This document shows, piece by piece, positions 5,566 through 59,769 of a stretch of DNA of 64,000 nt. This DNA is from Alkalicoccobacillus plakortidis (GTDB lineage: Bacteria; Bacillota; Bacilli; Bacillales; Bacillaceae_D). The translations under genes and the position numbers were made by a program. The notes under the pieces are model-generated. The model was not told the origin of the DNA, did not search any database, and saw only the letters and a program-made list of their open reading frames with translations. Numbering within the stretch: the stretch's first letter is position 1; each line of letters begins with the position of its first letter. The stretch is taken from NCBI RefSeq assembly GCF_023703085.1, contig NZ_JAMQJY010000001.1:2294001-2358000 (forward strand), read 5' to 3'.

Positions 5566-6208
5566 TTATACTGTTTGATAACTAGCGGCAAGACCCGCCT
5601 TTGTGAAAATACGTAAAGCAAACTGCATGATAAGCGCAGCAGGTAAACTGACCCCATAAAAGAGTAGTAAACCAGGGAATAAAAAGTATAGATACGTAAT
5701 CAAGCTTAGCAAGATGCATAACAGTAAAACATAATGCAAATTGGCTACACCAAGAAGAAGTGCATATCTAACTGCTTGAAGAGAAGGCAGATCCATATAA
5801 GCTTTTAATGGAAATGCTAATAGTGAAATAGATACAAATAGAAAGACAATCGTTAACAGAAGCATTCGTGGCAGTATACCGGCCTCCATTAATATCATTG
5901 CACGACCACTAATGACTAGTGAAAGTAAACCCAATGCGATGGTCCAACCAAAGAGATTAGCATGTACAAACTCTTTTTTATAACTAGCTTTAAACTCCTT
6001 AAATAGAGAAGCTGTACGGGTCCCAGTCAGTCCTGCCCCTAAAAAGGACTTTTTCATGACAGAATAAGCAGCAGCTGAAGCTGGAGCCCAACCAAATAGT
6101 CCTAGTCCAAGCAACCGTAAACCCGATCCACATCAGATTAATCACAGCGAGTCTCATTAGAATTTCACAATAGTACATGACGCCTTCTCCAAGTTTCTGA
6201 ATATTCAT
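5566..6208 (-). CDS. yesL: YesL family (DUF624) membrane protein, frameshifted
   Basis: A YesL-like protein of ~213 residues, read in two frames. The first part (MNIQKLGEGVMYYCEILMRL, then VINLMWIGFTVA) and the second (GLGLFGWAPASAAAYSVMKK onward) together match the DUF624 family, which has about five transmembrane segments and accompanies YesMN/Lpl-type sugar importers. The frame breaks at CCAAGC 6107-6112; removing one base gives the continuous conserved string TVAGLGLFGWAPASAA. The start at 6208 has GGAGG seven bases upstream and lies just after the second permease gene. Function is not established for the family; a role in signalling or transporter assembly is inferred from its constant company. 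Confidence 0.8.
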
Positions 6209-6236
6209 TAGGCCCTCCTTTTTCTTCTGCGGCTTA

Positions 6237-7082
6237 TTATTTAAGACCAGTTGTTGCAATACCTTCTACTAAATATCGTTGGAAAAACATGAATAGAATC
6301 AGCTGTGGTAATAAGGACAATGACGACATAGCAAGCAATGGTCCCCATGACGTACCAGCTTCTGCATCCATAAAGTTTCTTAACCCTAATGAAATCGTAT
6401 GAATTTCAGAGCTATTCAAATAGATAAGAGGAGAAAGAAAATCATCCCATGACCACATAAAAGCAAAGATCGCAACTGTTACAAGCGCTGGCTTAAGCAA
6501 CGGTAGAATGATACGCCAAAACACGCCGAAAGTTGAGCAACCATCAATAATCGCTGCCTCATCTAATTCTTTAGGAATACCTCTAATAAACTGGATCAAC
6601 AGAAAGATAAAAAACGGTGTTCCACCAAGAAAAGCAGGCACAATTAGAGGATAAAATGTATTTACCCAATTAAACTGCTGGAACAAGATGTATTGCGGAA
6701 TGAGGGTGATCTGCATTGGTAACATCACTGTTGAGATTAGGCAGGCAAATAGTATTTTTTTGAATCTAAAGCGTAATCTCGCAAATCCATACGCTACAAT
6801 ACTAGATGATAGTATGGCTCCTACAACAACACTACCCGTTACAAATAATGAGTTTCTAAAATAAACATCAAAACCTATTCCTCCAAATCCTGCCCATCCC
6901 TCAGGATAATTAAGCCAATCCACCTCTATTGGAATTAAAGAGATTGCGTTTGCAAAAATCTCCGTCTCTGGTTTAAGCGAGCTTCCAAACATCCACAGAA
7001 TTGGGTACAACATAAGAAAACTAAAACCGATGACAAATATATAATAGATAGAGTTAGATAATTTGGTTGGTTTGTTCATCAT
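6237..7082 (-). CDS. Carbohydrate ABC importer permease, MalG/LplC type
   Basis: A 281-residue inner-membrane permease with six predicted helices and the ATPase-coupling loop ELDEAAIIDGCSTFGVFWRIILP, the EAA motif of binding-protein-dependent importers. Its profile fits the YesQ/LplC/MalG class that handles oligosaccharides. The ATG overlaps the stop of the preceding permease gene as TAATG and is preceded by GGAGG, so the two are translationally coupled. No ATPase gene is present in the locus; such importers usually share the MsmX-type ATPase encoded elsewhere. Confidence 0.9.
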   Translation of the reverse strand: MMNKPTKLSNSIYYIFVIGFSFLMLYPILWMFGSSLKPETEIFANAISLIPIEVDWLNYPEGWAGFGGIGFDVYFRNSLFVTGSVVVGAILSSSIVAYGFARLRFRFKKILFACLISTVMLPMQITLIPQYILFQQFNWVNTFYPLIVPAFLGGTPFFIFLLIQFIRGIPKELDEAAIIDGCSTFGVFWRIILPLLKPALVTVAIFAFMWSWDDFLSPLIYLNSSEIHTISLGLRNFMDAEAGTSWGPLLAMSSLSLLPQLILFMFFQRYLVEGIATTGLK

Positions 7083-8029
7083 TAGTTCCCTCCATCCGAA
7101 TCATAGTGTACCCATAGACTAGATGTTTTGAAGATAATCAGTGTGAACACTCCGATTATGACAAGAAGCACCCAAGCCATTGCTGATGCGTAACCCATAT
7201 TTAAGAACTCAAAAGCAACTTCGTACAAATACACAGCATAAAACAATGTTGCGTCTCTTGGGCCTCCTCCAGTGACTAGGAAAGCCTGTGTAAATGTCAT
7301 GAATCCTCCTATCATTTCCATGATAAGGTTAAAAAAGATGATCGGTGTAAGCATCGGTAAGGTTATTTTGAAAAATTGTCTGACTCGATTTGCACCATCA
7401 ACACTAGCCGCTTCATACAAGTCTTTTGGGATCTGTCTTAAGCCAGCTAAAAAGATAATCATCGGCGCTCCAAATTGCCAAACAACAAGTAAAACTAGAA
7501 TAGACATCGATGCATTGGGGTCTCCAAAAAAACTGATCGTACTTAACCCTAAGGAGTCTAGCATCGAATTAACTGCCCCGTTCCGACCAAATAACTGTCT
7601 CCATACCACCGCAATCGCAACACTTCCTCCGATTATAGATGGAACATAATAAATGGTTGTAAAGAGTCCAGAGCCCTTTTTACCAGCATTAAAAATCATC
7701 GCAAGAAATAAGGAAAAGGCAAGCTTTAAAGGTACGGCGATAATGACAAATGTAAAGGTTGCCTTCAGGGATTGAATAAACCTCGGATCATTTGTAAACA
7801 GCTTTACATAGTTACTAATACCAGTCCAAACAGGCGCTGTTAGCATATTGTAATTTGTGAAGGATAAATAAAATGAATAGATCATGGGTCCTATAACTAA
7901 GCCAAAGAAACCAATTAGCCAAGGAGATATCACAAGATAAGCAGTTAAACTTTCTTTCCAGCTTTTCTTTCTAATTCTTTTCTTTTCATCAAGCGTAAGC
8001 TTTTGAGCTGTTGATTTGACTGTCTCCAT
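7082..8029 (-). CDS. Carbohydrate ABC importer permease, LacF/UgpA type
   Basis: A 315-residue permease with a cytoplasmic lysine-rich N-terminus, six helices and the EAA loop DLYEAASVDGANRVRQFFKITLP. It resembles YesP/LplB/UgpA, the partner of MalG-type permeases. It lies between the binding protein gene and the second permease gene in the order typical for CUT1 importers. An intercistronic hairpin upstream probably lowers its expression relative to the binding protein. Confidence 0.9.
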   Translation of the reverse strand: METVKSTAQKLTLDEKKRIRKKSWKESLTAYLVISPWLIGFFGLVIGPMIYSFYLSFTNYNMLTAPVWTGISNYVKLFTNDPRFIQSLKATFTFVIIAVPLKLAFSLFLAMIFNAGKKGSGLFTTIYYVPSIIGGSVAIAVVWRQLFGRNGAVNSMLDSLGLSTISFFGDPNASMSILVLLVVWQFGAPMIIFLAGLRQIPKDLYEAASVDGANRVRQFFKITLPMLTPIIFFNLIMEMIGGFMTFTQAFLVTGGGPRDATLFYAVYLYEVAFEFLNMGYASAMAWVLLVIIGVFTLIIFKTSSLWVHYDSDGGN

Positions 8030-8081
8030 TTCCCACCTCTATTTATTAGACATTTTTAGACAGGTAAAAAGAAAAGAGAAA

Positions 8082-8107
8082 AGGTCAGTCCAAAATTGGC
8101 CTGACCT
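8082..8107 (-). terminator. Intercistronic hairpin between binding protein and permease genes
   Basis: AGGTCAG (8082-8088) pairs with CTGACCT (8101-8107), with a further CCAA/TTGG inner pairing. On the minus strand it is followed by a pyrimidine-rich TTTTCTCTTTTC tract. Such hairpins stabilise the upstream binding-protein message and attenuate read-through. Confidence 0.6.
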
Positions 8108-8137
8108 CTACCCATACTCGTGTATGTGAAGCCAATG

Positions 8138-9430: not shown

Positions 9431-9453
9431 AAGTAACCAACCCCCGCTCAATT

Positions 9454-9490
9454 TGTAAGTGCTTTCATATTCTAATTATAAGCGCTTACA
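9454..9490. promoter_or_regulatory. Two cre-like operators upstream of the sugar importer
   Basis: TGTAAGTGCTTTCA (9454-9467) and TATAAGCGCTTACA (9477-9490) each differ from the cre consensus by one base. On the minus strand, a possible promoter TTGATA-16-TATATA lies upstream of them, so a bound protein would block elongation. CcpA or a LacI-family repressor could bind. Confidence 0.55.
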
Positions 9491-9665: not shown

Positions 9666-9691
9666 ATTAAAATTATGAAGGATGTGTATCA

Positions 9692-12063
9692 GTGAAGCTT
9701 CAATACGAAAAACCTGCTGAACTTTGGACAGACGCACTACCCATCGGAAATGGAAGTCTTGGAGCCATGGTATTTGGAGGTGTTCACAATGAACGACTTC
9801 AATGCAATCAGGATACACTTTGGTCCGGTTCACCTCGGGATCAGTCTAACCCCGAAGCTTACGAACACCTTCCACATGTTCGTAAGCTGTTAAAAGAAAA
9901 AAAGTACATCGAGGCTGATGAAGCTGCCAAGAAATTAATGGGGGCGTATACTCAATCGTATCTGCCTTTCTGTGACATCCATCTTGCATTTGATCATGAG
10001 GACTCTTATTCCAACTATCAAAGAAATCTCGATTTAACAAGAGCCGTTTTGAATACAAGCTATGAATCTCGAGGTGTTACATATAAGAGAGAACTATTTT
10101 CCTCCTTTCCAGATCGTGCGATTGTGCTGAAACTATCTTCTAATCAGCCTCAAGCCTTATCATTTTCTGTTCGTATATCAAGCCAATTACAAACCATTAG
10201 TCAAGCGAGTGGTCAGCAAATTCATTTAATAGGACGTTGTCCAGATCACGTAGATCCTTCTTATTACAACACACCAGATCCAATTATATATAAAAACGAT
10301 CTTGAATCGGAGGCCATTCGTTTTGAAGCTATATTAGATCTTCAACATATTGATGGCGAGATCAACGTTTCCAAGGATTCTTTGATCATTACAGATGCAA
10401 CAGAAGTTATCATTCGTTTTGCAGCTGCTACAAGCTTTAATGGCTATGATCGCTTGCCAAAAACAGAGGGTAAGGATTATCGGGCTGAGGTATCGACTAT
10501 TCTTCAACAAGCTGTCGCCAAACCGTATCATGATCTTCTTCGTTCTCACCTGGAAGATTACCAACCACTTTTTCAAAGAGTAGACTTTGAGCTGGATTCA
10601 AGCGCATCAAAAAACAACCTACCTACAGATCAAAGAATTAGTAAATATGGTGCACGGGATCAAGGGTTAGTTGAGCTATTATTTCACTATGGACGCTACT
10701 TGATGATTGCGAGTTCAAGGCCTGGTTCACAACCCGCTAATCTACAAGGGATATGGAATGATGAGCTTCGCCCACCGTGGAGCAGTAATTATACATTAAA
10801 TATTAATGCACAAATGAACTACTGGCCGGTTGAAGTTTGCCAAGCTTTCAGAATGCCATACACCTTTTTTAGGCTTCATTCAAGAACTGAGCGAGACTGG
10901 CAAACAAACTGCTTCCATTCATTATGGATGTGATGGTTGGACGGCTCATCATAATTCTGACATTTGGAGACACTCTCTTCCAAGCAGGAAACAAAAATCA
11001 TGGTGAAACAATATGGACCATATGGCCAATGGCTAGCGCTTGGCTGTCTCAACATGTTTGGGAGCATTACCTGTTCCACTTAGATGAACAATATCTAAGT
11101 GAATTCGCCTATCCTATCATGAAAGGAGCTGCTGAATTTTGCCTTGATTGGCTTATCCTAAATCAAGATGGCTATCTCATTACATCGCCATCTACTTCTC
11201 CTGAGCACTGCTTTATGATAAACGGTAAACCATGTGGTGTAAGTGAAGCCTCAACGATGGATATGGCGTTAATAAGGGAGTTGTTTGTAAATGTGTTAGA
11301 GGCAGCAACCATTTTAGATACGGACCAAGCTTTCAGTTTAAATCTAGAGAAGGCATTAGAGAAGCTGATCCCCTATCAAATCGGTGAGCGTAATCGACTA
11401 CAAGAGTGGTCAGAGGATTTTCTGGATCATGAAGAAAAGCACAGGCACGTTTCACATCTATATGGTGTCTATCCTGGCAGTCATCTTACTCAAAAAAGTG
11501 CTGAACCATTCTTAGATGCAGCCAAAAAAGCACTTATTATACGAAGTAACGAGGGCACTGGCTGGAGTTTAGCATGGAAAATCTGTTTATGGGCTCGATT
11601 TGGAGATGGAGAACAAGCTCATCAACTAATTGAAAACTTACTCGAGCTAGCTGAGGATCAATCTGGATTTGCACAAAAAGGTGGCGTGTACAACAATTTA
11701 TTTGATGCCCATCCTCCCTTTCAGATTGATGGTAATTTCGGCTACACTGCCGGAGTTGTTGAGATGTTAGTCCAGTCTCATAACGATTATCTTGAATTTT
11801 TACCTACTCTGCCAAAACAATGGAATAAAGGAAGACTAAAAGGGGTTAGAGCTCGCGGCGGATTTATTATTGATATAGAATGGGTCGAAGAAAAGTTAGT
11901 TCATGCTTCCATATTATCTGAAAAAGGTCAGCCCATAAAATTATTCTCTACACATCAAGTGCTCGTACATTCAGAAGGAGAACAAGTGGAAACGACTTTT
12001 AACTCAAAAGAAAGTATTCTGTCCTTTCCAACTACAGCTTGGACAAAAATATCAAATTACTAG
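9692..12063 (+). CDS. GH95 alpha-L-fucosidase, two frame breaks
   Basis: A glycoside hydrolase family 95 protein of ~789 residues without a signal peptide, so it should act on imported oligosaccharides. The N-terminus has the family hallmark (LWTDALPIGNGSLGAMVFGG, NQDTLWSGSPRD). The catalytic region carries LNINAQMNYWPVE with the two Asn that position the water, TSPSTSPEH with the acid Glu, and QIDGNFGYTAGV with the conserved Asp. Two frame breaks lie 140 bases apart at CCAAGC 10840-10845 and 10980-10985; between them the third frame encodes LSECHTPFLGFIQELSETGK and DGWTAHHNSDIW, exactly as in GH95. Removing one A at each site gives an intact enzyme. Start is GTG after AAGGA. Confidence 0.88.
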
Positions 12064-12747: not shown

Positions 12748-13840
12748 TTATTTCTTTAAAGGTTGGTTCGATAAATCGCCAGTCATATTTAATTCAAATA
12801 ATCCTGCTTCCTTTGCAGATCGAATAGCAATATATACAAATGGCCCAAGGATTAATCCCATAACACCAAAGAACACATAACCAAAATACATCGATAAAAC
12901 AGTTGGCAATGCAGCTAGGCCAATGGAGTCTCCGAGTACTTTAGGTTCAATAATTCGTCTAACAATAAGTAAAACAGCTGCCAAAATCATTAATTGAAGT
13001 CCTGTATTTGTACCGCCCAACACCATAGCTAGGATTCCCCAAGGTACAAGAATTAAGGCTTGGTCCTACATACAGTGGAATAATGTCCACAAGCCAAATT
13101 AGGACAGACATAATCAATGCATACTTTGGCGAGACAAATAACAAACTGATATAAGTAACAATAAAAACCCCTACGCTCAAAATGAATTGAGCTTTCCAAT
13201 ATCCTAGAAACACCTTGCTCATACGTTGAAACACAAATCTAAGCTTGCTGGCTGTTTCCATTTTAAATAAATTAAAAAACAGGTTAAGCAGCCTTGGAAG
13301 ATCCAAACTGAATAAGAACAATGTAATCAAATACACAAGTAATACAAATAGCATATTAGGAATAGCCGTTAAAATAGAAGTTATACCTGAGAGAATATCG
13401 GAAGTAATGCCTACAGCCCGATCAAATAAACCCTCTGATTGTCTTTCTATTTCACGCACGATTTGATTTCCCTGTGGAATTTCAGCAATGGTCTGGTTAA
13501 AGCTAACAATAAAGTTATCAATAAAGATTTGAACTTCTCGAGCATATTGTGGCAGCTGCAGTGACAAATCATAGATAACTCGAATGACCCTAGTAAAGGT
13601 TAAGTATAGTAGATAACCACCAACTGTAACAAAAAGCAAAAACACAATGGTTACAGGAAGAATTCTCTTCTCTGTTTTAAGATGTTTCTTGAGCATTTTC
13701 ACAAAAGGCTCAAAAATCATAGCAGTCAGTAAGGCGAACAAAATCGGTGAAAACAGCGAAAAGTTAAAATATACAAAAACAGTGATTGCAAGAATAGCAA
13801 TCAAAGTCAAAATTCGTTTGACTAAAACTTGATTAAACAA
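12748..13840 (-). CDS. AI-2E family transporter (YtvI/PerM-like), frameshifted
   Basis: A ~363-residue membrane protein of the AI-2E/UPF0118 family with about eight helices: two N-terminal pairs, a soluble helical region (about 95-150), and the C-terminal block around WLVDIIPLYVGP, WGILAMVLGGTNTG and RRIIEPKVLGDSIGL. Family members export small solutes or act as Na+/H+ antiporters; the substrate here is unknown. The frame breaks at GCTTGG 13058-13063; dropping one base gives VGPALILVPWGILAMVLGG, the conserved family string. Translation starts at TTG 13840 with AGGAGG seven bases upstream. Confidence 0.82.
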
Positions 13841-17351: not shown

Positions 17352-18696
17352 ATGTATAACAACAAGAAAAAACAGATGAAATTAGGCGTATTTCTAGCAG
17401 GAACAGGCCATCATGTTGCTTCATGGAGACACCCTCGTGCTATAAAAAACGGTTCGATGAATCTAAACTATTTTCAAGAGCTAGCTAAAACAGCAGAACG
17501 CGGTAAATTTGATCTTCTGTTTTTAGCAGACAGCTTGTCTATTAATCCTAAATCACATCCAAATGTTATGACACGTTTTGAACCTTTTACGATACTCGGC
17601 GCTTTGGCTCAGGCAACTGAAAAGATCGGTTTGGTTGCTACAGCTTCAACTACTTATAGCGAGCCATTTCATATTGCCCGTCAATTTGCTTCATTAGATC
17701 ATCTTTCTGATGGCAGAGCAGGTTGGAATGTCGTAACTTCTTCCATTGCAGACACAGCAAAGAATTTCAGTGGCACTGACCATTTAGAACATCATCTCAG
17801 ATATAAGCGAGCTGATGAATTTGTAGGGGTTGTTCAAGGTTTGTGGGATTCATGGGAAGAAGATTCGTTCATCCGCAATCAAGAAGCAGGGGTATTTTTT
17901 GACTCTACCAAATACCATGAACTGCATCATACGGGTGACTACTTCAAAGTGAAAGGCCCACTTAATGTGGAACGAACACCACAAGGCCAACCAGTCATCG
18001 TTCAAGCTGGATCATCAAAGGATGGAATGGCGCTTGCCTCTAAATATGCTGAGGTGATCTTCACTGCACAAAATAATGTAGACGCTGCTCAAGCATTCTA
18101 TACAGATATTAAAAAACAGGTTGAATTAAACGGGCGTGATGCTGATCAAGTTCATGTTCTACCAGGAATTTTCCCGGTCATTGGTTTAACCGAAGAAGAA
18201 GCAGAAACTAAATATAAGGAACTTCAGGATCTCATTCAGCCAGAAGTAGGTTTGAGCATTCTTTCAACCGCACTTGGAGGCTTTGACCTTACAGGTTACC
18301 CACTAGATGGACCACTTCCCGACATTGATGTAGAGCAATCTAATGCTGTCAAAAGTCGCGCACAGCTTGTCATTGATTTAGCGAAACGTGATCAGTTAAG
18401 CATTCGACAGCTATATCAATATGTCGCTTGGGTCGCGTGGACATCACATCTTTGTAGGTACTCCAGTGCAACTAGCTGACAAATTAGAAGAATGGTTTAC
18501 ACGTGATGCGTGTGATGGATTTAATATCATGCCTCCATTGTTACCTGAGGGACTGGAACTATTTGTAGATCAGGTCGTTCCGATTTTACAAGAGCGCGGA
18601 CTCTATCGAAGTGAATATACAACATCGACTTTACGTGGACATCTTGGTCTACATGAACCAGTGAATCGCTATGCAACGGGACCTGAAAATGAATAA
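17352..18696 (+). CDS. yxeK: FMN-dependent monooxygenase, NtaA/SnaA/SoxA family (YxeK-like), frameshifted
   Basis: A luciferase-like flavin monooxygenase of ~447 residues with the hallmarks of the NtaA/SnaA/DszA group: FLAGTGHHVASWRHP, FDLLFLADS, GLVATASTTYSEPFHIARQFASLDHLS and GRAGWNVVTS. In B. subtilis YxeK oxidises N-acetyl-S-(2-succino)cysteine so that the C-S bond breaks, releasing N-acetylcysteine and oxaloacetate. The frame breaks at GCTTGG 18426-18431; dropping one base gives QYVAGSRGHHIFVGTP, the conserved C-terminal FMN-binding part. It is the first gene of the operon and overlaps the next by eight bases. Reduced FMN must come from a reductase elsewhere. Confidence 0.85.
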
Positions 18697-21550: not shown

Positions 21551-22895
21551 ATGACAAATATAACTTCTACTCTAGCTGAGTTAGTTGTTCATTCAAAACC
21601 AGATAGTGAAGCACTTAAGTCTGCTCAAAAAGGATTAATTGATTATTTCGCCTCTAGTTTAACAGCTAAAGATTCAGGCACAGGAAAACATCTCAAAGAA
21701 TGGTTTAAAGAAGAAGGTGGCCATAAGCAAGTTCCATTAATTGGCCAGCACACTTCAGCTTCGGCAAAGCAGGCAGCATTATTTAACGGATATCTTGGTC
21801 ATGCACTAGATCTTGATGATGTGCATACAGAGGTTCGTGGTCATCCTAGTACAGTCATCATCCAAGCGCTACTTTCAGCCGGCGCTTCTGGTGAATTTTC
21901 AGGCAAACGATTTTTAGAGGCTTATACAATCGGTGTAGAAGTTATGGCGCGAATGGGGCTCGCTATCGGGAATGAACATTATACAAAAGGCTTGGCACAA
22001 TACTGCTACACTAGGCGGAATTGCTGCTGCATGTGCCTGTGCGTATTTAAAAGAATTCACTGTAAAACAAACGGAGCGAGTTATTGGGCTCGCTGCAACA
22101 CAGGCCTCGGGCATGCGCAATCAGTTTGGAACAGAGACAAAACCTCTACACGCAGGATTAGCAGCCGAGCAAGCCTACTCATCGGTTCGTTTCATTGAAT
22201 TTGGCTTATCTAGTTCAAGGGAGTCGCTAGATGGGGAAAACGGGTTTCTTAATTTATATGGAGCTGATGAGCATCAGGCAGATTTATTAACCTCAGACTG
22301 GGGTCATAGCTGGAGGATCACCTCTCCTGGACTTTGGTTTAAAGTCTACCCATTCTGCTCAGCTGCTTTCCATGCTGCCGATGCAACATTTGAATTACTT
22401 ACACAATCTAATGTTCAAGTAGAAAACATTCAGCGAATTGAAGTCATTTTCCCTCCAGGTGGTGATGCCGCTTTGGTAAATAAGTGTCCAAAAAACACTG
22501 ATGAAGGACGTTTTAGTGTGGAGTATGTCGTAGCTCTTATCCTAATTAAAAAATCAGTATCATTAGATGATTTTAATCAAGGAACAATTGGGGCAGACAT
22601 ACGTGCGTTAATGGATAAAATAAATCGAAGGCACGATCCAGATATTACTGCTTCCCGTCGATCTGCTCCAAAAGGAAGATTCACGATTGTCCGTCTCTTT
22701 CAGGAAGATGGTGAAGTTCTCGAGGCTAGAGTTGACGCACCAACTGGATCTCCACAAAAACCACTTAAGCTCAGTCAGCTTGAACAAAAACTGAGAGACT
22801 CATGTGATGAAACTCAGTTTGAAAACATTAAAAAAGCAGTTAACGAGTTATCATCAGTTGAACAGTTAACTAACCTATTGAAAGCTCTTTACTGA
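21551..22895 (+). CDS. yxeQ: MmgE/PrpD family protein (YxeQ-like), frameshifted
   Basis: About 447 residues of the MmgE/PrpD fold: N-terminal helical domain with GLIDYFASSLTAKDSGTGKH, the conserved GYLGHALDLDDVH and RGHPST, the block GWHNTATLGGIAAACAC, TKPLHAGLAAEQA, and a C-terminal lid domain with FSVEYVVALIL. Members are 2-methylcitrate dehydratase, cis-aconitate decarboxylase and iminodisuccinate epimerase. The frame breaks at GCTTGG 21990-21995; dropping one base gives KGWHNTATLG. ATG 21551 has GGAGTG eight bases upstream. The role of YxeQ in 2-succinocysteine use is not settled; handling a succinyl-type intermediate or stereoisomer fits the fold but is inference. Confidence 0.82.
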
Positions 22896-25050: not shown

Positions 25051-25981
25051 CTAGAACAGCATTTGACTAAGATAGATAAAAAATGTCACTGTGAAGCAGC
25101 TGGCAATTGTAGAGACCAACACTGCTTGGGCGGCATAGTCAGGATAGTTGTCATACTCTAAAGCAAACAACGCGCTATTTCTCGACATTGGAAATGAACT
25201 TGCGATTAGAAGTCCTTGGGCAACGGTACCATCTAGTCCCATCACCCATATGATACCCAAACCAATCAAGGGTGCTGCGATCAAGCGTGCAAAAATCGAG
25301 ACAAAAAATAAAAAGGAAAACTGTTTTAACGTAGGATACGCGATTTGTGCCCCTAACACGACAAGAGCTAAAGCAATAAAGCCATTAGAAACCTGCTGCA
25401 TCGGTGTTTGAATAAATGTTGGCAGCTCCCACGGCATTTGATAAAAAAGGAGTCCTAGCACAAGCGCATAAATAATTGGTGTTTTAAAAAGCTCAGAGAG
25501 ATTACGCCAAAATCCTGTAGATCTCGTTGAAGCGGAAATGATCACACCGTATGTATACGTTATTAAATTTTGAAACATTAATACAATCACTTGAACCGAA
25601 ATACCGAGTGGATTGCCAGCAAACACAAGCTGACTAACAGGCAATCCAAAGTTACCAGAATTCATTAAGACAATACTATTTTGAAAGGTTGGGGCAAGCT
25701 TCGGGTCCACCTTAAATAGCTTAACCATGCCCCAAGCTCAAACTGGCTAAGATCACAAATTGAATCATTAAAAAGCCACCGATTTCAACCAACAATGACG
25801 CATCCAAGTTACTATTTGAAATATTAACAAACACAACAACTGGAAGAAAAAAATAGGTTAATAGTTTTGAAAAGGATGATAAATGAAATGAGAATTTTCG
25901 ATGTAGCAATGCACCCGCTACCAATAACACAAAGATAGGCAGCATGACCTGAAAGATAATCTCAACTAAAAATGTCCACAT
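25051..25981 (-). CDS. AEC family transporter (auxin efflux carrier type), frameshifted
   Basis: About 309 residues and ten helices in two repeats, typical of the AEC family (malate/malonate permeases and auxin carrier homologues). Marks include PIFVLLVAGALLHRKF, FFLPVVVFVNI, LMNSGNFGLPVSQL and the second-half SSFPMSRNSALFALEY. The frame breaks at CCAAGC 25732-25737; dropping one base joins ILASLSWGMVKLFKVDPKL without gap. It starts at ATG 25981, 24 bases after the HIBYL-CoA hydrolase stop region on the same strand, so cotranscription is likely. It is the first of two AEC genes in the window. Confidence 0.83.
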
Positions 25982-28883: not shown

Positions 28884-29231
28884 ATGTTTGCCTGTAAGGT
28901 CAGGTGCCGCACGACCGTTTTTATTAAATATGGAGAAGGCACCCCCACACTCGAATCAACAAAAGCTTTATTTAAACAGCTTCGAAAACAATCCAAGTTG
29001 ATATCGGTCAAAAAAATCTATGATTATAAACATTGGAAAAATGACTTTGGTGAAGTAGCAGCTACTCTTGAGGTTGATGTATTGGTCGAGCATGATCAAA
29101 ATGTGGACTATCTTTCTGATTATGAGTTACGAGCCTGTCGAGTTGTCCGTGAACAGTTTTTTACAGCTTGGTACGGCTATCCAGGCGTTAGACTCTCACC
29201 GTTATCAGCCTTTACGTGTGAGGGCTTTTAG
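28884..29231 (+). CDS. Hypothetical protein, 115 residues
   Basis: I do not recognise a family. ATG 28884 has a strong GGAGG eight bases upstream. The product is soluble, mixed alpha/beta by pattern, with two Cys in the first eight residues, a basic middle (FKQLRKQSKLISVKKIYDYKHW) and an acidic second half (LEVDVLVEHDQNVDYL), ending in the glycine/proline stretch WYGYPGVRLSPLSAF. The region 28633-28883 upstream holds no gene but two direct copies of ATTCTATTTTTG (about 28784 and 28828) that might be operators. It is transcribed alone. Confidence 0.6.
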   Translation: MFACKVRCRTTVFIKYGEGTPTLESTKALFKQLRKQSKLISVKKIYDYKHWKNDFGEVAATLEVDVLVEHDQNVDYLSDYELRACRVVREQFFTAWYGYPGVRLSPLSAFTCEGF

Positions 29232-29272: not shown

Positions 29273-30593
29273 TTATTCAGTTAATGCTTCTCGGAGTTCT
29301 TCTTCGGTTTCAACGTTTAATAAATTCATAGCACTATCTCCATCTAAATCTTCTAGTTCTGGATTTGCCCCATAATCTAATAGAAGTAACGCTCCATCTA
29401 AATAATCGTAATAAACAGCTGCAATTAATGGTGTGGTTTCACGTTCGTTCTCATGATTAGGATCTGCACCTGCTTCTAGCAAAATTCCAACGATTTCTGT
29501 ATTCCCATAAAAAACAGCATAGTGTAAAGCTGTTTCACCATATCCATCTTGATCGTTAAGATTTACTCCCGATTCAATTAAACGATTGACCTCGTCTAGA
29601 TCCTCCGCATTAACAGCATCCATTAATTCGGTTGTTTCATACTCATAAAAAGTATCATCATATTCACCAAATCCTATCTCTTCTTCAAGCTCAGTTATTA
29701 TACTCCCATATAACACAGTACCACCTGCCACACTTCCAATAATAGCAAAGTAAGCACCAATTGTTGCTGCACCAAGAATGAGCACTCCAACAACTACTTT
29801 TCCAGCATTTTCTGTATATATAGGTCTTGATGTTTCCCCCATAAATACACTGACTGATTGAATTCGTTTTGGTAGATTTGGGTGAGACGATAGAATTTCA
29901 CTTACCCATACCACTCCGTGCGATTCAGCTGAAATTTGTTCAACAAATGCATCCTCATTTACTTCTCGATATACTTGTTTTCCGACACTTAAAATCGTGA
30001 GTGCTCGTTTGGCTGCAGGTGCGTTGTTTATAATATATGCCGCTTCCCGATCACATGTATATTCACATGAACGGCTGTAGGCTTGTGCTAGAAAGGGGAT
30101 AAACTGAGCTTGGTGCGATTAAGATATTTTTCCACACATGGCGACGTTTCACGTGTGACAGCTCATGAGCAATAATAAAATCAAGCTCATCTTTGCCTTG
30201 TTCGCGTCCTAAATCAAAAATTTCTGAGTATAATACAACCATATTACGCCCCCAGAACCTTGTTGCAAAAGCATTTAGGATACCTTCTGATTGGATAACA
30301 AAGACATCGGGTACTTTTTGTAGTCCCATTTGCTCTGACATGACCTTTACTCGTTCATACACATCCGGAAACTGATTCTCACTAATGCGAACTCCGTTTC
30401 CTCGAATGGATCCTAGCATCGTCATATTTACAAAAAACATAAAAGCGAAGATAAATAAGGCAATTCCAATACCTATGATTGATATTGCCGCAATAACATA
30501 CACCAGTACACTAAAAATAATGGCTAATACAAAATAAATAGTTTCTCTTGATGAAGCGATATTCTGTTGGTTCAACTCTTTTTCCTCCTGCAA
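29273..30593 (-). CDS. M48 membrane metallopeptidase fused to ankyrin repeats, frameshifted
   Basis: One gene of ~439 residues once a single base at GCTTGG 30108-30113 is removed. Two N-terminal helices (~18-60) precede an HtpX/M48-type zinc peptidase domain with HELSH (His143, Glu144, His147) and the third ligand Glu177 in YSRSCEYTCDREA. A glycine-rich membrane segment follows (~VVVGVLILGAATIGAYFAIIG), then an acidic linker and about three ankyrin repeats (TELMDAVNAEDLDEVNRLI, GETALHYAVFYGNTEIVGIL, TTPLIAAVYYDYLDGALLLL). The fusion suggests a membrane protease whose substrate recruitment or regulation uses the ankyrin part. Its function is not known to me. A downstream terminator makes it monocistronic. 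Confidence 0.8.
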
Positions 30594-32319: not shown

Positions 32320-33295
32320 ATGACATCGACTAAATGGTTTTTAGGGCTACTCACTTTATGTATGGTTCTATTTGTTAGCGCATGCAATACAAATTCAGAT
32401 ACGGAAGACAAATCAGATGGGAACAATGAAACAGCTGAAGCGGAAACAAAGATCTTTGCATCTGAGAGCGGAGATGTAGAGATTCCAGGAAAAACCCGAA
32501 CGGATTGTAACAGACATCTACGCAGGAGAATTTTTCTCGGTAGGAGCAAACGTTGTTGGTGCAGGATCTTGGACCTTTGGAAACCCAATACTTGAAGAGC
32601 AGCTCGAGGATGTTACTGACATTGGTGATCCAGTGAATCTAGAGAGTGTCTTGGAATCAAAGCCTGATTTGATTGTGGTCATGAGTGATGATCAATATGA
32701 AGAGCTTTCACAAATTGCACCAACGATTGTTATTCCTTATAACACAACAACAAATATTCAAGATACCGTAGAGATGTTTGGCGAAATAGCTGGTGCCGAA
32801 GAAGAAGCTGATTCTTTTATAGCTGACTTTGAAGAGAAAGCGGCTCAAGCTCGTGAGGAAATTAATGGAGTGATTGATGAGGGTGCTACAGTTGGCATCT
32901 ATGAGATCACAGACCAAGGATCCTTCTGGGTGTTTGGAGAAAATGGCGGTCGTGGTGGACAAGCACTTTATAATGCCTTAGAACTAGAGGCACCCGCGTC
33001 TATAAAAGCTGACATTATCGAAACCGATGAGGTTAAAGAACTTTCGATGGAAGTTGTTCCTGAGTATGCCGCTGATTATATGTTTATCACAGACTATAAC
33101 CCAGACGGGACAAGTGACAGTCTCAATCAGTTTACAGAATCATCTATTTGGCAAGATTTAGAGGCTGTAAAGAACAATCGTGTCTTTGTGAATGATTTTG
33201 ATACCTTTTATCCTTATAATCCGATTTCTGTTTCCCATCAAATTGATTTATTTGTTGAGATGATTAAGGATCGTGCAGAGGAAAACGGCGAATAA
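32320..33295 (+). CDS. Iron-siderophore ABC importer binding lipoprotein, frameshifted
   Basis: About 324 residues: lipobox ending VSAC (Cys22), an acidic linker, then a FecB/FepB-type periplasmic binding domain (DIYAGEFFSVGANVVGAG, LESVLESKPDLIVV, WVFGENGGRGGQALYNAL, VFVNDFDTFYPYNPISV). It should bind a ferric siderophore, probably a citrate or hydroxamate type, for a permease encoded elsewhere. The frame breaks at about 32488-32494, within GGAAAAA; removing one base gives the usual VEIPEKPERIV or VEIPGKPERIV. This break is homopolymer-like, unlike the GCTTGG cases. A Fur box precedes it and a terminator follows. Confidence 0.85.
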
Positions 33296-36074: not shown

Positions 36075-36975
36075 ATGTCCTTTGTAAAACCATCAACGAC
36101 TGCTTCTATGTATGCACTGCTCTCCATTAGCTTCTGGGGTGTTTCCTTTGTATCAACTAAAGCGGTTCTAGGTACTCTCGACCCCCTCACATTACTTGTT
36201 ATGCGGTTTGGAATTGGCGCGGTGTTTTTATTTATATTAATAGTCGCTCAAAAACATAGTCTGCGTATTCAATTCAGCTATCTTCCACACCTTTTGATCC
36301 TTGGCGTATTAGGTGTGTTTGTGCATCAACTCATCCAAGCCTCCGCACTCTTAACCATTGATGCAACAGATGCAGGCTGGATGATCTCATTTTCACCCAT
36401 TTTTACAGTGGTTCTTTCCATCCTGTTTCTTCATGAACGAGTAACGATTTTCAAGGTCAGTGGGATGTTGCTCGCAGTAATCGGTGTCCTGTTCATTACA
36501 ACTGCTTGGACCTGACCGCTCTCTCTCGTTTGGACTTCATATTGGTTATTTCCTCATGCTACTCAGTACCTTTAATTGGGCTGTGTATTCTATTTTGCTG
36601 AAAAAGTTGCAGATTCCTATGCCTTCTATAGTCATTACCTTTTATATGTGTACGATTGGTTTCCTGTTCACACTGCCATTTATCATTCGAAATAATGGAT
36701 GGGAAGCCCTTCCTCTTCTATCTGAGTCCGAGTGGATCCACCTACTTTTTCTTGGTGTCTTTGTTTCAAGTGTCTCCTATTGGTTTTGGGCAAAATCACT
36801 TGAAGTCATGGAGGCTTCAAAGGTCTCGGTCTTTCTTTATCTCGAGCCACTAACAACACTTATCGCAGCAGTGTTCCTTTTAAACGAACAGATTTTACTC
36901 ATAAGTGTACTTGGTGGCTTCATAATTATCTTAGGAGTGGTCTTAGTTAATCGACCGGTGTCATCAAACCGATAA
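36075..36975 (+). CDS. EamA/DMT family transporter, frameshifted
   Basis: About 299 residues, ten helices in two EamA repeats: MYALLSISFWGVSFVSTKAVLG and LEPLTTLIAAVFLLNEQIL mark the two halves. DMT carriers export amino acids or other metabolites. The frame breaks at GCTTGG 36504-36509 between the repeats; dropping one base gives ITTAGPDRSLSFGLHIGYF. The cysteine dioxygenase gene starts eleven bases after its stop with GGAGG, so cotranscription suggests export of a cysteine-related compound (inference). Confidence 0.83.
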
Positions 36976-46755: not shown

Positions 46756-46766
46756 CGCTTTCCCTC

Positions 46767-48041
46767 CTAAGAATTAGACACATGTAATGACTTCATTGCT
46801 CGCTGCCTGTCATTCCAAGATAGTGGTGGTAGCCCGTTTGCTATTGTGACCATATCAATGGCACCATCAACAGGACACACAATCGAACAAAGATTACAGC
46901 CTACACATTCATCTTCGTCAACCATTAAGTATGATGCGCCCGTTCCATCCTTGTACCTGCTAATACATTGATGAGCGGTATCTTCGCATGCTATTTGACA
47001 CTTATTACAGTTAATACAGGTCTCTGTATTGATTCGAGCGACAATTTGGTGATTCAGATTCACATTGCCCCAATCTGAATATTTGTGTACAGAACGCCCA
47101 ATTAGCTGCTGGACTGAATCGAGTCCTTTTTCATCTAAATAGTTACTTAATCCATCAATCATATCCTCAACAATTCGGAATCCATGATGCATTGCTGCTG
47201 TACAAACCTGAACATTTGAAGCCCCCATCAGCATAAACTCAACCACGTTCTGCCAATTAGAGATCCCACCAATGCCTGAGATTGGTACAGTTACTCGCTC
47301 ATTTCTGGCACACTCACCAAGCATATGCAGTGCAATCGGTTTAACCGCCGGACCACAATAACCACCATGCGTTCCGATCCCATCTACATTTGGAACGGTG
47401 TCCCATGTATGAATGTCCACCGACGCCAAACTATTTATTGTGTTGATGAGGCTGATCGAGTCTGCACCACCAAGAACAGCCGCCTCTGCCGTTGATGTAA
47501 TATCCGTGATGTTTGGGGTGAGTTTAACAATGACAGGAGTCTCCGCAACCTCTTTAACCCAATAGGTCTGTTGTTCCACCAAGGATGGAACTTGACCAGA
47601 AGCTGCTCCCATGCCTCTCTCAGCCATACCGTGTGGACAGCCAAAGTTCAGCTCTAAGCCGTCTACCCCAATGGCTTCCACTTGCTTTACAATCTCATGC
47701 CACTTCTCCTGCTGTGGCTCAACCATTAACGACGCAACAATCGCTCGATCTGGAAATCGCTTTTTTGTCTCAGCAATCTCACGTAAGTTCACCTCAAGTG
47801 GTCGATCGCTAATAAGCTCAATATTGTTAAAACCAGCCACTCTCTGCCCATTAAATGAAACAGCAGCAAAGCGGGAGGTAGAATTAATAATTGGTTCGCC
47901 AAGTGTTTTCCAAACTACTCCTCCCCATCCTGCCTCAAACGCACGTTGCACCTGGTAGCCAGAATTAGTTGGTGGCGCGCTTGCCAGCCAAAATGGATTA
48001 GGTGATGCAATTCCTGCAAGATTGCTATATAAATCAGCCAT
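46767..48041 (-). CDS. preA: NAD-dependent dihydropyrimidine dehydrogenase subunit PreA
   Basis: A 424-residue protein: a dihydroorotate-dehydrogenase-like FMN barrel (IASPNPFWLASAPPTNSG, LELNFGCPHGM, VIVKLTPNITDI, ISGIGGISNW) followed by two 4Fe-4S ferredoxin motifs (CINCNKCQIACEDTAHQC and CVGCNLCSIVCPVDGA). With PreT it reduces uracil and thymine to the dihydro forms using NADH. AGGAGG precedes the ATG; it starts ten bases after preT. Confidence 0.93.
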   Translation of the reverse strand: MADLYSNLAGIASPNPFWLASAPPTNSGYQVQRAFEAGWGGVVWKTLGEPIINSTSRFAAVSFNGQRVAGFNNIELISDRPLEVNLREIAETKKRFPDRAIVASLMVEPQQEKWHEIVKQVEAIGVDGLELNFGCPHGMAERGMGAASGQVPSLVEQQTYWVKEVAETPVIVKLTPNITDITSTAEAAVLGGADSISLINTINSLASVDIHTWDTVPNVDGIGTHGGYCGPAVKPIALHMLGECARNERVTVPISGIGGISNWQNVVEFMLMGASNVQVCTAAMHHGFRIVEDMIDGLSNYLDEKGLDSVQQLIGRSVHKYSDWGNVNLNHQIVARINTETCINCNKCQIACEDTAHQCISRYKDGTGASYLMVDEDECVGCNLCSIVCPVDGAIDMVTIANGLPPLSWNDRQRAMKSLHVSNS

Positions 48042-48051: not shown

Positions 48052-49411
48052 CTACGCACTAGTTTCTGCTCGTTGTCCCATTAGCTTTTGATGAACGCCA
48101 TAAGCCGTTTGCTTTCCTTGCTCCGCTGCAGAGACGACCATCGCTTCACCTTGCCCATTTCCAAAAATCACATCCCCACAGGCAAATATCCCGCTGACGG
48201 ACGTTTCTAAAGTCTCTTGATCGACTTCGATCACACCATAAGTGGTTTTTATACCTGCCTTTTGTAGCCAGTCTGTATAGCGAGACTGACCAATGGCACG
48301 GATGACAAAATCAACGTCAAGCGAGTGACTCCGTTTGGTCGGAATTGCTCTGCGCCTGCCATCCACATCTGGCTCTGCAAGCTCCATATCTACACATTCA
48401 ATCGATTGCACTCTACCTGATTGATCACCATTAATCTTTGTTGGAGAAGTCAACCAACGAAACTCCACGCCATCTTGTTTGGCAAACTCATACTCAAAGT
48501 CGTAAGCAGTCATTTCTTCAGCCGTTCTCCGGTAAAGTATTTTTACGTTTTTTGCCCCTAGTCGAGTGGCACAAGTTGCTCCATCGATGGCAGTATTGCC
48601 AGCTCCAATCACCACTCCACTTTTTCCAATAAACTGATTAGAGAGCTGACCGTTTTTGGTAGCCTTTACAAATTCAACGGCATCATAAACTCCTTCAAGT
48701 TCTTCTCCTTCAATCTTTAAAAGAGGAACAGATGACATACCAATTGCGAGGATCACGGCATCAAATGTTTTGGTGAGTGTACGCAAATCGATATCCCTTC
48801 CGACTTTTGTATTTGTATGAATCGTGACACCAACTGATTTCACCTGTTCTACTTCCCAGAAAGACACTTGTTTCGGTAGTCGGAACGAGACAATGCCATA
48901 CGTGTTAAGACCTCCCGCTTCCGCTTCAGCCTCATATATCGCGACTTCATAACCCATCACAGCTAGTTCTCTGGCCGCTGATAATCCAGCTTGGACCTCC
49001 GCCTACAATAGCCACGGATTTACCTTTTGCATGTCCTGCCTTAAAAAGGACCTTTTCATTTTGCATTGCCCAATCCGTCGCATAACGCTGTAGTTTGCCA
49101 ATTAAGATCGGTTTAGTTGATTCATTAAGGACACAGGACCCCTCACACAGCTCTTCTGTTGGACAAACTCTTGCGCAGCTTGCCCCAACTGGGTTAGCTT
49201 CCATAATCGTGCGCGCCGAACCAAGCAAATTATCCGTCGTAATTTTTTTGATAAACGACGGAATATCAATACCCGTTGGACACGCGGTTATACAGGGTGC
49301 ATCATAGCAATACAAACAGCGACTTGCTTCCTCAAACGCTTCCTGAGCCGATAATGGCAGCTCCACTTCCTCAAAATTCAAACGCAACCTGTCTAGGTGA
49401 TTCTCATTCAT
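48052..49411 (-). CDS. preT: Dihydropyrimidine dehydrogenase subunit PreT, frameshifted
   Basis: About 452 residues. The N-terminal domain carries the Cys sets for 4Fe-4S clusters (CLYCYDAPCITACPTGIDI, CARVCPTEELCEG), then the FAD site VAIVGGGPAGLSAARELA and the NAD site VVIGAGNTAIDGATCATRLG, ending with FACGDVIFGNGQGEAMV. It passes electrons from NADH to PreA. The frame breaks at GCTTGG 48989-48994 in the FAD loop; dropping one base restores GGGPAGLSAAREL. It is the first gene of the operon, with a promoter upstream. Confidence 0.88.
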
Positions 49412-53295: not shown

Positions 53296-54053
53296 TTATC
53301 TTCCTAACCAAGCCACCATCAACAGCTAGTGTAAATCCATTTACGTAGTCTGATGCAGAGGAAGCGAGAAATACGACTGCTCCCTGCATGTCTTTAGGTT
53401 GTCCCCATCTTTCTGCAGGGATTCGATCAAGAATTTGTTTACTGCGTGTTCCATCTTCAATTAAAGCCGTATTCATATCTGTTTCCATGTAGCCTGGTGC
53501 AATACAATTTATATTGATTCCATGCTTCGCCCACTCATTTGCTAGTGATTTAGTAAACTGCATCACTGCACCCTTACTTGCTGCATATGCCGGAACTGTG
53601 AGACCACCTTGGAACGATAATAATGAAGCTAAATTAATGATTTTACCGCTTTTTTGTTCAAGCATTCTTTTTCCAACCTTTTGACACAAAAAGAATACAG
53701 CGTTCGCATTCACATCCATAACCATATCCCAATCTTCTTTAGGGAATTCAACAGATGGGTGCCTAGACTGAACACCCGCATTATTTACCAAAATATCAAT
53801 GGATCCCATGCTCTGCTCAATCATATCAAGCAGTTCATCGTATTTATGGTGATCCTGCAAGTCAAAAGCAATACTCAAACCTTTTACACCTAATTCGGCC
53901 ATTTCATCAGCAAACGTATCCTGCTTCACTCTGGAAATAATGACAACATTAGCTCCAAGCATGAGCTAAGCCTTTTGCCATGTCTTTCCCAAGACCTCTA
54001 CTGCCTCCTGTTACGACTGCTACTTTTCCAGTTAAATCGAATAAATTAGACAC
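53296..54053 (-). CDS. kduD: 2-dehydro-3-deoxy-D-gluconate 5-dehydrogenase KduD, two frame breaks
   Basis: An SDR of ~251 residues. Starting at GTG 54053 (GGGGAGG upstream) it reads MSNLFDLTGKVAVVTGGSRG, continues through NNAGVQSRHPS, YAASKGAV with the Tyr-Lys pair, and APGYMETDMNTAL, and ends VDGGWLGR. Two frame breaks both lie in CCAAGC: 53955-53960 (restores AHAGANVV) and 53308-53313 (restores DGGWLGR with stop at 53296, the expected family end). Length after repair equals KduD. It reduces or oxidises 2,5-diketo-3-deoxygluconate to KDG in uronate breakdown. Last gene of the kdu operon. Confidence 0.85.
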
Positions 54054-54055
54054 TC

Positions 54056-55067
54056 TTACGCCTCCCCTGTAAAATCAAATAATACTTTTACGGCATCTGA
54101 TGATTGCGTTAACAAATCAAAGCCCTCTTTTGCCTCTTCTGGGGGTAATGTATGTGTGATAATCGCTTGATATTGATCATGTTTCATTAATAAATCTAAA
54201 GCAATATCAAAATCCTTATCTGTATACACACGAACAAATTGGATTGACAGCTCTTTAAACATTCCTTTTAGTAGATTCACTTCTGCAGGTTTTTTATAGC
54301 CAGCTATGATCACAATCTTACCTCTAACTCTTACAGATTCCATAACATTTGCAAGAACTGCGGGGTGTCCTGCACAATCAAATACACAGTCATACCCTGA
54401 TCCGTTTGTTTGAGTGTTAACAAAATCCATAACAGGAGTATCTAATGGATTAATAGCGACAAACCCTAACTCTTCAGCTTTTTTTAGTCGGTGAGCATTG
54501 GTCTCAACAATAACGACTTCTGATGCACCTGTTGCTCTTAACGTCAAAGCCAGACATAAGCCGATTGTACCTGCTCCAAATACTAATGCACGATCTCCTG
54601 GCGTGTAACCTCCTTGGCGAATCGCATGAACCGTTACAGCAACTGGTTCAGCAAGCGCACCGACCTCAAGTGGCATCTGCTCAGGTAGGGTGACAATATT
54701 TCCAACAGGTACATCAACAAATTCAGCCATTCCACCGTCACAATCAATTCCAATTAGCTTAAGAGTTTCGCAAACATGCGGGTGTCCAGTCGTACACGGT
54801 GTACACTGACCGCAAGAGAGTAATGGGTTAACCGTAACCTTAGTACCAGCAGGAAGGGAAGGGTGTCCATTCTCTATTGTCCCCGAAAATTCATGGCCCA
54901 TCGTTAGATTCTCTTGAGCACGTGGGTGGGTTCCCGCAAAAATACTTAAGTCTGTTCCACAGATTCCAAGCATACGCCGTTCGAATTCGCACAGATTGAG
55001 TAGTAAGCTCTAATTTTTTTTCTTTTGCTATTACCTTTCCGGCTTTTTCATAAACAATCGCTTTCAT
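54056..55067 (-). CDS. Zinc-dependent alcohol/polyol dehydrogenase, frameshifted
   Basis: About 336 residues, medium-chain zinc ADH: catalytic Cys and His in AGICGTDLSIF and GHEFSGTI, structural zinc Cys set in LSCGQCTPCTTGHPHVC, NAD fold VFGAGTIGLCLALTLRATG. It resembles threonine/galactitol/sorbitol dehydrogenases. The frame breaks at CCAAGC 54966-54971; dropping one base gives RTAYAGICGTD and joins the N-terminus MKAIVYEKAGK (ATG 55067 after GGAGG). In this operon it may oxidise a uronate-derived alcohol such as tagaturonate/altronate-type sugars; the substrate is inferred only from context. Confidence 0.85.
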
Positions 55068-55094
55068 TTCTCCACTCCTCCATACATTTCTCTA

Positions 55095-56402: not shown

Positions 56403-56420
56403 GTATTAACCCCCATATCG

Positions 56421-56894: not shown

Positions 56895-56909
56895 CGCAGA
56901 TCTCCTTCT

Positions 56910-57932: not shown

Positions 57933-57952
57933 ATCATCTATAGCTCCTCTCA

Positions 57953-58918
57953 CTACTTTAAGTCATTAACTGGATAGTGAACTGGCTCACCCTGCAAAAA
58001 GCGCACAGCTTCAAGAGCAACCTTCTCTTTTAGCTCAACAGCAGCCTGCTCTGAATACCAGCCCATATGCGGAGTACACAGGAAGTTATCAAGCTTAAGA
58101 ATTGGGTGATCTTTTGCGACAGGTTCCTTCTCCAACACATCTACAGCTGCTCCTGCAATGTCTTTGTTCACTAATGCTTGCTCTAATGCCTCTTCATTAA
58201 TGATTCCTCCACGAGAGACGTTAATTAGGTAAGCATTATTCTTCATTTTCTTTAATTCATCTGCTCCAATTAAGTTCTGCGCACGGTCCAGTGGACAATG
58301 AATCGAGATCACATCAGATTCCGTCAGCAGATCCTCAAAGCTTTTATATTCAACAAACTCAGGCATTCTATTTTGCTTCTCTTGATCGTACTTAGGATCA
58401 TAAGCAATCACACGACATCCTAGCGCTGAAGCCTTCTGAGCAAATGCCGCACCAATACGACCAAGACCAATTACACCAACTGTTTGTTTACTGTGACGAA
58501 ATAGCGGAACAGCATGCTGATAGTTCCATTCGCCTTCTTTTACACCTTTGACCATCTTATAAATACCGCGTGTAAACGCCAACATAAATGCCAAAGCATG
58601 ATCCGCAACTTCCTGAGTTCCATAGTCAGGAACGTTACACACCTGAACTCCAAGCTCACTGGCAACATCTAGGTCTACATTGTTCACTCCTACACCATAA
58701 CGAACCACCAGCTTTACATCAGACAAAGCTTGAAGAACCTCTCGTGTGATAGGTGCATATTGATTAATCAACACACTTGCACCCTGACAATTCTTAATTA
58801 GATCTTCTTCGGTTTTACACTGTTTCAACTCAAATTCAATCTCATTTTTCTCTAGAATTTTTGTTTCATATTCAATATGTTCATGGTCACAATCCGTTAT
58901 ATATACTTTAGGTTCCAT
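57953..58918 (-). CDS. D-2-hydroxyacid dehydrogenase family protein
   Basis: A 321-residue D-isomer hydroxyacid dehydrogenase: NAD site VGVIGLGRIGAAFAQKASALG, catalytic Arg in NVSRGGIINEEAL, Glu in VLEKEPV and His in CTPHMGWYSE. The SerA/CtBP-like group reduces 2-keto acids such as hydroxypyruvate. Its place between kduI and the TRAP genes suggests a keto acid from uronate metabolism. The start lies 19 bases after kduI. Confidence 0.9.
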   Translation of the reverse strand: MEPKVYITDCDHEHIEYETKILEKNEIEFELKQCKTEEDLIKNCQGASVLINQYAPITREVLQALSDVKLVVRYGVGVNNVDLDVASELGVQVCNVPDYGTQEVADHALAFMLAFTRGIYKMVKGVKEGEWNYQHAVPLFRHSKQTVGVIGLGRIGAAFAQKASALGCRVIAYDPKYDQEKQNRMPEFVEYKSFEDLLTESDVISIHCPLDRAQNLIGADELKKMKNNAYLINVSRGGIINEEALEQALVNKDIAGAAVDVLEKEPVAKDHPILKLDNFLCTPHMGWYSEQAAVELKEKVALEAVRFLQGEPVHYPVNDLK

Positions 58919-58937
58919 TAGTCCACTCCTTAATTGA

Positions 58938-59769
58938 TTAACGTAAGTCCTTCATTTCTACAAAATCCATATCATCAAAATCCTGGTTCTCTCCACACAT
59001 TCCCCAGATAAATGTGTAGTTAGCCGTTCCTATGCCTGAATGAATCGACCAGCTTGGAGAGAGTACTGCTTGCTCATTTCTAACGACAATATGTCTTGTT
59101 TCATGCGGCTGACCCATTAGGTGGAATACATTTGTATCCTCTTCCATATTAAAATAAAAGTACACTTCCATTCTGCGCTCATGTGTGTGGCATGGCATTG
59201 TGTTCCAACCACTTCCTTTAGCGATTTCCGTCATTCCCATTGAGAGCTGACAGGTATCCAATACATCAGGATGAATGTATTGATTAATCACTCGCTCATT
59301 CATTGTGTCACTCGAACCAAGGAAGCGTTTTGCTGCTTGTTCTTTTGTGACTTTTCGAGTTGGATACGTATGGTGTGCAGGACAACTGTTTAAATAAAAC
59401 TTGGCTTGGAGTTTGTGAATCCACAGAATAAAACGTGACATTTTCAGCTCCCATTCCAATATAAAGTGCTTCAGCATGGCCCACTTGATAGGTCTCATCT
59501 CCCACCTCAACATAACCATCTCCACCAATATTAATTGCGCCCAATTCTCTTCTCTCTAAAAAATATGCTGCAGATAATTGGTTCCCTTCAGGTAAACTCA
59601 CGCCCGTATCAACAGGGTTTACGCCACCATAAATGATTCGATCTACGTGACTATAAGTAATCACAATTTCATTAGATTCAAAGACTTGCTCCATTAAAAA
59701 TTGCTCACGTAACTTCTCAGTAGTGTACAAACGTACATCGTCTGGATGATGCGGATAAAGAGTTTTCAA
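58938..59769 (-). CDS. kduI: 5-dehydro-4-deoxy-D-glucuronate isomerase KduI, frameshifted
   Basis: About 276 residues, the normal KduI length. N-terminal part [20 protein letters not shown], middle [20 protein letters not shown], and the metal site [17 protein letters not shown] are typical. The frame breaks at GCTTGG 59404-59409; dropping one base converts TPSQVLFKQ to [14 protein letters not shown]. It interconverts 5-keto-4-deoxyuronate and 2,5-diketo-3-deoxygluconate after pectin or heparin lyase action. Translation starts at TTG 59769, six bases after GAGAGG. First gene of the operon, under an IclR-type operator and a cre site. Confidence 0.88.

Follow-up and report, generated by a model that had tools for sequence, protein, structure and literature searches.

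The Listed Frame Breaks in the Window Share One Hexamer

The window analyzed here is a stretch of 64,000 nt from Alkalicoccobacillus plakortidis (contig NZ_JAMQJY010000001.1, positions 2,294,001–2,358,000; contig C1 below), which contains a series of genes with reading frames broken at the hexamer GCTTGG, or CCAAGC on the opposite strand (Table 1). An earlier note had listed 14 such breaks and attributed them to a consensus error that adds one T or A to GCTGG/CCAGC. The source genome (G000) comprises 4.37 Mb in nine contigs; its nearest named relatives are A. murimartini, A. porphyridii and A. gibsonii, and four congeneric genomes (G001–G004, the last a single contig) were used for comparison. 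Breaks were sought by tblastn with the open reading frames (ORFs) of three congeners against 404 kb including the window, merging neighboring breaks into sites, and by a second test with 4651 stop-to-stop ORFs taken from 140 loci.

A word search on both strands showed that all 14 coordinates are indeed GCTTGG or CCAAGC, eight in sense and six in antisense orientation relative to the gene. The window holds 42 copies of the hexamer on both strands, against a mean of 27.2 and a maximum of 41 in shuffled sequences; GCTGG is not depleted in the window alone (82 observed, 82.1 in shuffles). Comparison with congener ORFs revealed breaks at ten of the 14 sites, those from 6107 to 48989, as well as a fifteenth at 29166 that had been overlooked, and the stop-to-stop test supported the same 11 sites. 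The shift was +1 in all supporting relatives, save for one at 21990 (-2, an equivalent frame).

Sites 53308, 53955, 54966 and 59404, around which congener DNA gave short matches only, found no support in the stop-to-stop test and were judged by family profiles and frame translation. At 59404, two kduI ORFs span profile positions 1–130 and 122–277. For 54966 the dehydrogenase ORF starts near profile position 34, for 53955 that of kduD starts at position 29, and in each case the lost N-terminus is readable in another frame. The kduD ORF at 53308 already extends to profile position 246 of 248, so that the tail alone is affected. The list thus holds for ten sites by relatives and for three by profiles, with 53308 as its doubtful member.

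Table 1. GCTTGG sites at frame breaks in the window, and methyltransferase and cassette genes elsewhere in the genome (window coordinates, unless a locus or contig is given).
Feature	Position	Strand	Evidence
Break in DUF624 (YesL-like) gene	6107..6112	-	both break tests, profile
First of two breaks in GH95 gene	10840..10845	-	both break tests, profile
Second of two breaks in GH95 gene	10980..10985	-	both break tests, profile
Break in AI-2E gene (earlier note's name, unchecked)	13058..13063	+	both break tests
Break in yxeK (earlier note's name, unchecked)	18426..18431	+	both break tests
Break in yxeQ (earlier note's name, unchecked)	21990..21995	+	both break tests
Break in Mem_trans (AEC) gene	25732..25737	-	both break tests, profile
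Break in small unnamed gene, beyond the earlier list	29166..29171	+	both break tests
Break in M48 peptidase gene	30108..30113	+	both break tests, profile
Break in EamA gene (earlier note's name, unchecked)	36504..36509	+	both break tests
Break in pyridine nucleotide-disulphide oxidoreductase (PreT-like) gene	48989..48994	+	both break tests, profile
GCTTGG close to kduD C-terminus, last residues only	53308..53313	-	profile and frame translation, weak
Break near kduD N-terminus	53955..53960	-	profile and frame translation
Break near N-terminus of zinc-dependent dehydrogenase gene	54966..54971	-	profile and frame translation
Break in the middle of kduI	59404..59409	+	profile and frame translation
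Tandem C5 methyltransferase genes	L185 8245–9489 and 9500–10666 (C1:2593245–2595666)	-	both above PF00145 cut-off
Predicted PD-(D/E)XK protein in cassette	L185 2875–4683		DUF2357 and PDDEXK_7, both above cut-off
AAA-like protein in cassette	L185 4694–6178		AAA matches below cut-off, the only ones in Pfam
Full-length C5 methyltransferase ORF among prophage-like genes	L186 8836–9897		
Further C5 methyltransferase match, apparently incomplete	L187 9590–10264		profile positions 1–169 of 324

GCTTGG Marks Frame Breaks beyond the Window

The 404 kb that include the window have 83 merged break sites, and GCTTGG is present in 52 of them, compared with 3% of 19,999 random intervals of matched lengths; among sites backed by at least two relatives the proportion was 44/61. 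The earlier note had named a lack of enrichment in the rest of the genome as a refutation of its explanation; in the 340 kb examined beyond the window's limits, GCTTGG is present at 41 of 70 break sites. Between congeners, the searches gave 0 and 1 breaks against G002 and 4 and 9 against G004, none of them with GCTTGG. Likewise, GCTTGG lies at most 12 bases from 49 of 99 isolated one-base insertions in the G000 DNA, and the corresponding figure in the opposite direction is 0/50. The word occurs in sense orientation at 31 of the 52 sites, in antisense at 19 and in both at two. Across the genome there are 3178 copies, or 728/Mb, vs. 507–544/Mb in the four congeners; the surplus over the congener mean of ~532/Mb amounts to roughly 850 sites, using rounded genome sizes. 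Additionally, 13 of the 31 break sites lacking GCTTGG have GCTGG in a relative, where chance intervals would give 13%.

Some breaks in and near the window lie outside the motif. Both break tests detected a +1 break against G002 at 32480–32505 without GCTTGG, and a signal from the stop-to-stop test at 46756–46777 may be the mere junction of two adjacent ORFs. Just beyond the window end, near C1:2358862, an ABC-F gene also has a break without GCTTGG; its congener copy matches the NCBIfam model for ribosomal-protection-like ABC-F proteins.

GCTGG is Depleted and Replaced by Several Words

Measured against the relatives, no 5-mer in the 404 kb is more depleted than GCTGG (459 vs. 660), which lies 24–30% below the three congeners. 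Where three relatives agree on GCTGG (53 words), G000 keeps it 24 times and reads GCTTG six times, GCTTGG four times and GCCTGG once, with other states in the remaining 18; no comparable G-to-T change was seen for the control words TCTGG (74 words), ACTGG (44) and CCTGG (45) among their six commonest states, which cover 74, 42 and 45 sites. Several -1 breaks are located where relatives carry CCAGC, and GCTG is found as a further altered form. The extra T/A, which the earlier note had taken for the sole change, is therefore the form in which a wider disturbance of GCTGG, one that includes insertions, deletions and substitutions, most often breaks a frame.

The loss of GCTGG varies with the preceding base, with own-to-relative ratios of 0.41 for C, 0.56 for G, 0.78 for A and 0.95 for T. 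A strictly longer motif was rejected because the clear effect is limited to that base, and neither GCCGG nor GCAGG qualifies as the source word, since neither is depleted (217 vs. 193 and 634 vs. 640, in 404 and 398 kb). Deamination of 5-methylcytosine (m5C) was likewise discarded: the change from GCTGG to GTTGG is not in excess (30/408, vs. 24/335 in reverse). GCGTA is also scarcer in the 404 kb of G000 (866/Mb vs. 1063–1210/Mb in three congeners), being the second most depleted 5-mer relative to G002.

Essential Genes are Split and rRNA Copies Disagree

In 60 kb around the ribosomal operons of contig C5 we found 17 breaks, ten of them with GCTTGG. According to Pfam, nine of these ten affect genes for a ClpC-like ATPase, IspD (two breaks), L7/L12, S7, S19, L5, SecY and S9; the tenth lies in a gene called L24-like from its N-terminus. 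In the dnaA stretch, GCTTGG is present in two of four breaks, both within small ORFs inside ribosomal RNA (rRNA) genes. The reverse control of the C5 and dnaA search gave three and four breaks, although it is unclean, the ORFs of G000 being themselves broken. The S7 gene is present as two adjacent complementary pieces, as is that for SecY, whose longer piece has three internal stops; both are whole in all four congeners, and a search of G000 found no second copy of either.

The rRNA comparison covered seven copies, omitting those on contig C8 (L216, L233, L234) as divergent. At one conserved 16S site, four copies have GCTGG, two GCTTG and one GCTTGG. Three of nine variable columns in the 16S and all four in the 23S fall inside GCTGG, the latter comprising two deletions and two insertions, and a minority state occurs in 10/91 motif windows vs. 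80/31,080 other windows. Upon inclusion of L216 and L233, the motif was changed in 15/56 (16S) and 10/55 (23S) cases, vs. 1/312 and 19/538 for control words, with the proviso that eight of the 15 changed 16S motifs represent one site at which G004 itself varies. The C8 operon diverges from the other seven copies, and its 23S match is in two pieces and short of the 3′ end; it may represent foreign DNA, a misassembly or a copy that has diverged.

A living cell is not compatible with such changes, with split essential genes and mixed rRNA, if they are real. The split single-copy genes and the disagreeing rRNA copies thus make real mutation unlikely and indicate, indirectly, that the altered words would be absent from the real DNA.

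Probable Consensus Errors at a Putatively Modified Word

The observed motif specificity, the spread of the breaks over the stretches and contigs examined, the several outcomes, the split essential genes and the disagreeing rRNA copies are best explained if the breaks are consensus base-calling errors at chemically modified GCTGG/CCAGC, not gene decay (probability about 0.86), as the earlier note had proposed for the window. The assembly would derive from single molecules, most likely sequenced with an older nanopore chemistry; GCTGG/CCAGC would be modified in the organism, probably as m5C, and the disturbed signal would be read variously as GCTTGG, GCTTG, GCTG or GCCTGG. The organism itself should then carry these genes unbroken.

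As to the modifying enzyme, profile searches were made with PF00145 (C5 methyltransferase), PF01555 and PF02384. PF00145 matched four times in G000, once in G001 and not at all in G002–G004. Two of the four G000 matches form a tandem pair, absent from all four congeners, which adjoins an HNH_2 protein in a cassette that also encodes the PD-(D/E)XK and AAA-like proteins of Table 1 and resembles the LlaJI system described below. Relatives of the AAA-like and DUF2357 proteins sit close together on several plasmids. The earlier note had anticipated an orphan methyltransferase; the candidate enzymes are present, but they sit in this cassette, similar to a restriction-modification (R-M) system, and are not orphans. 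Of the order's 397 genomes, 14, G000 included, have a homolog of one enzyme of the pair, M1 (E up to 1e-80). Comparison of 12 loci showed a homolog of the other, M2, adjoining it in ten, one of them truncated at the end of the locus. Searches against solved structures returned only general C5 methyltransferases and their relatives. No enzyme for GCTGG/CCAGC emerged from a literature search; among the papers listed, PMC10687267 alone was relevant, and PMC5487053 mentions CCAGC solely in a site-ranking table.

If both strands are marked, a word that is asymmetric and has a cytosine on either strand requires two enzymes, or one with two domains. The tandem pair would suit this need, and we slightly favor it as the likely modifier that marks GCTGG. 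A tentative alternative, less favored yet serious, is that the errors are artefacts as proposed and the word is modified by a different enzyme, either a prophage-located C5 methyltransferase or a member of another class. The former has a full-length candidate in L186, in addition to the partial match in L187 (near 17 kb and 1.65 Mb of C1, respectively). The two-enzyme fit of the tandem pair speaks against it, and a PF01555-type enzyme was rejected for want of any match in G000. PF02384 matched once, weakly, in G000, and each of the four congeners has matches to it as well.

The 9.2 kb cassette (L185:2875–12107, C1:2587875–2597107) contains no GCTGG, where 4.6 are expected (3/300 shuffles), and six GCTTGG, where 1.6 are expected (3/300 shuffles). 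The lack of GCTGG could reflect either self-avoidance or the same errors.

A basecaller or polisher bias at GCTGG that acts without any base modification is improbable. The dependence of the loss on the preceding base does resemble a k-mer bias; however, GCTGG is common in bacteria and such a bias would be expected in most genomes made alike. Excerpts of PMC10687267, a study of Listeria monocytogenes in which errors center on the same word, report only 0–40 mismatches for seven isolates processed with the same pipeline.

Much less probable still is a biological mutator acting at GCTGG, with real breaks in decayed genes, which the earlier note had already ranked second. The single motif would suit it, as would the numerous breaks that the window has in accessory sugar genes; yet it would have had to hit S7, S19, L5, L7/L12, S9 and SecY, put rRNA copies into different states at conserved sites, and insert, delete and substitute bases within a single word without an excess of GTTGG. 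Programmed translational frameshifting at GCTTGG, an idea that draws on one word being common to many +1 breaks, can be practically dismissed, as the word is antisense at 6/14 sites of the window and 19/52 sites of the 404 kb and rRNA is affected too.

Several observations weigh against modification-induced errors, or against the tandem pair as their source. Neither GCTTGG nor a GCTGG in a relative is present at 18 of the 83 break sites, and the depletion of GCTGG may be partly natural, because the aligned DNA of the congeners is just 75–80% identical to that of G000. The methyltransferase loci homologous to the pair do not avoid GCTGG, with eight of 11 above expectation; the one other M1-bearing genome compared has no excess of GCTTGG within its genus (three genomes: 340, 372 and 323 per Mb); and G000 has two further C5 methyltransferase genes, both among prophage-like genes. 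In the excerpts of PMC10687267, the Listeria errors are mostly mismatches, not indels, albeit from a pipeline that included Homopolish; the numbers of 5mC calls do not differ between isolates of low and high quality; and R-M systems are described as absent from every low-quality isolate, R20-0026 among them. The last two points weaken m5C and an R-M-type enzyme as the common cause in both organisms.

If the errors are as proposed, a genome that represents its species contains many false breaks that make ribosomal and secretion genes look destroyed, and counts of pseudogenes, gene losses and core genes drawn from it would mislead. The question of the GCTGG-modifying enzyme becomes testable through two named genes. 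The chances are about even that the tandem enzymes constitute a new specificity, GCTGG/CCAGC, and, more widely, that the consensus errors frozen in public assemblies preserve a trace of the methylome that can be read; motif-centered errors together with lineage-specific methyltransferases could then assign recognition words without raw data.

Comparison with Known Systems

The closest precedent for the errors is L. monocytogenes R20-0026 (sequence type ST1081), for which excerpts of PMC10687267 describe Oxford Nanopore Technologies R9.4 errors centered on GCTGG/CCAGC, with the mechanism left unclear. The five-base word is the same and in both cases the errors occur in one lineage; in contrast to the mainly mismatched Listeria sequences, G000 also shows insertions and deletions. 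Artefact and modification were demonstrated there with Illumina hybrid assemblies and amplified DNA, demodified by the amplification, which gave better genomes, and R10.4 chemistry corrected the errors of those isolates (excerpts of PMC11218467), whereas the analysis of G000 drew on assembly sequence. G000 also carries a cassette, unlike the low-quality Listeria isolates with their reportedly missing R-M systems, and the idea that the same enzymes cause the Listeria errors was dropped on that account. No Listeria name appears among the best 120 of ~8000 homologs for each protein of the pair, a result of little weight, as most of these entries are nameless.

By gene content the cassette is similar to LlaJI of Lactococcus lactis, which, according to excerpts of PMC1459862, combines two m5C methyltransferases with an McrB-like GTPase (R1) and a PD-(D/E)XK nuclease subunit (R2), the two enzymes methylating the asymmetric five-base site GACGC/GCGTC; it differs in the HNH protein beside the pair. 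The LlaJI site shows no clear sign of disturbance in G000 (GACGC, 651/Mb vs. 651–765/Mb in relatives). The HgaI-like RM.MhoVI of Mycoplasma hominis, as described in excerpts of PMC12376442, also has two m5C methyltransferases, one for each strand of an asymmetric five-base word, seen in nanopore data; its word is GACGC/GCGTC. Finally, L. lactis plasmid p275D (NZ_CP016702) carries homologs of both methyltransferases side by side, with 65.8% and 56.6% identity; there, the annotated neighbor is a PLD-domain restriction endonuclease, in place of the AAA-like and DUF2357 proteins of the G000 cassette.

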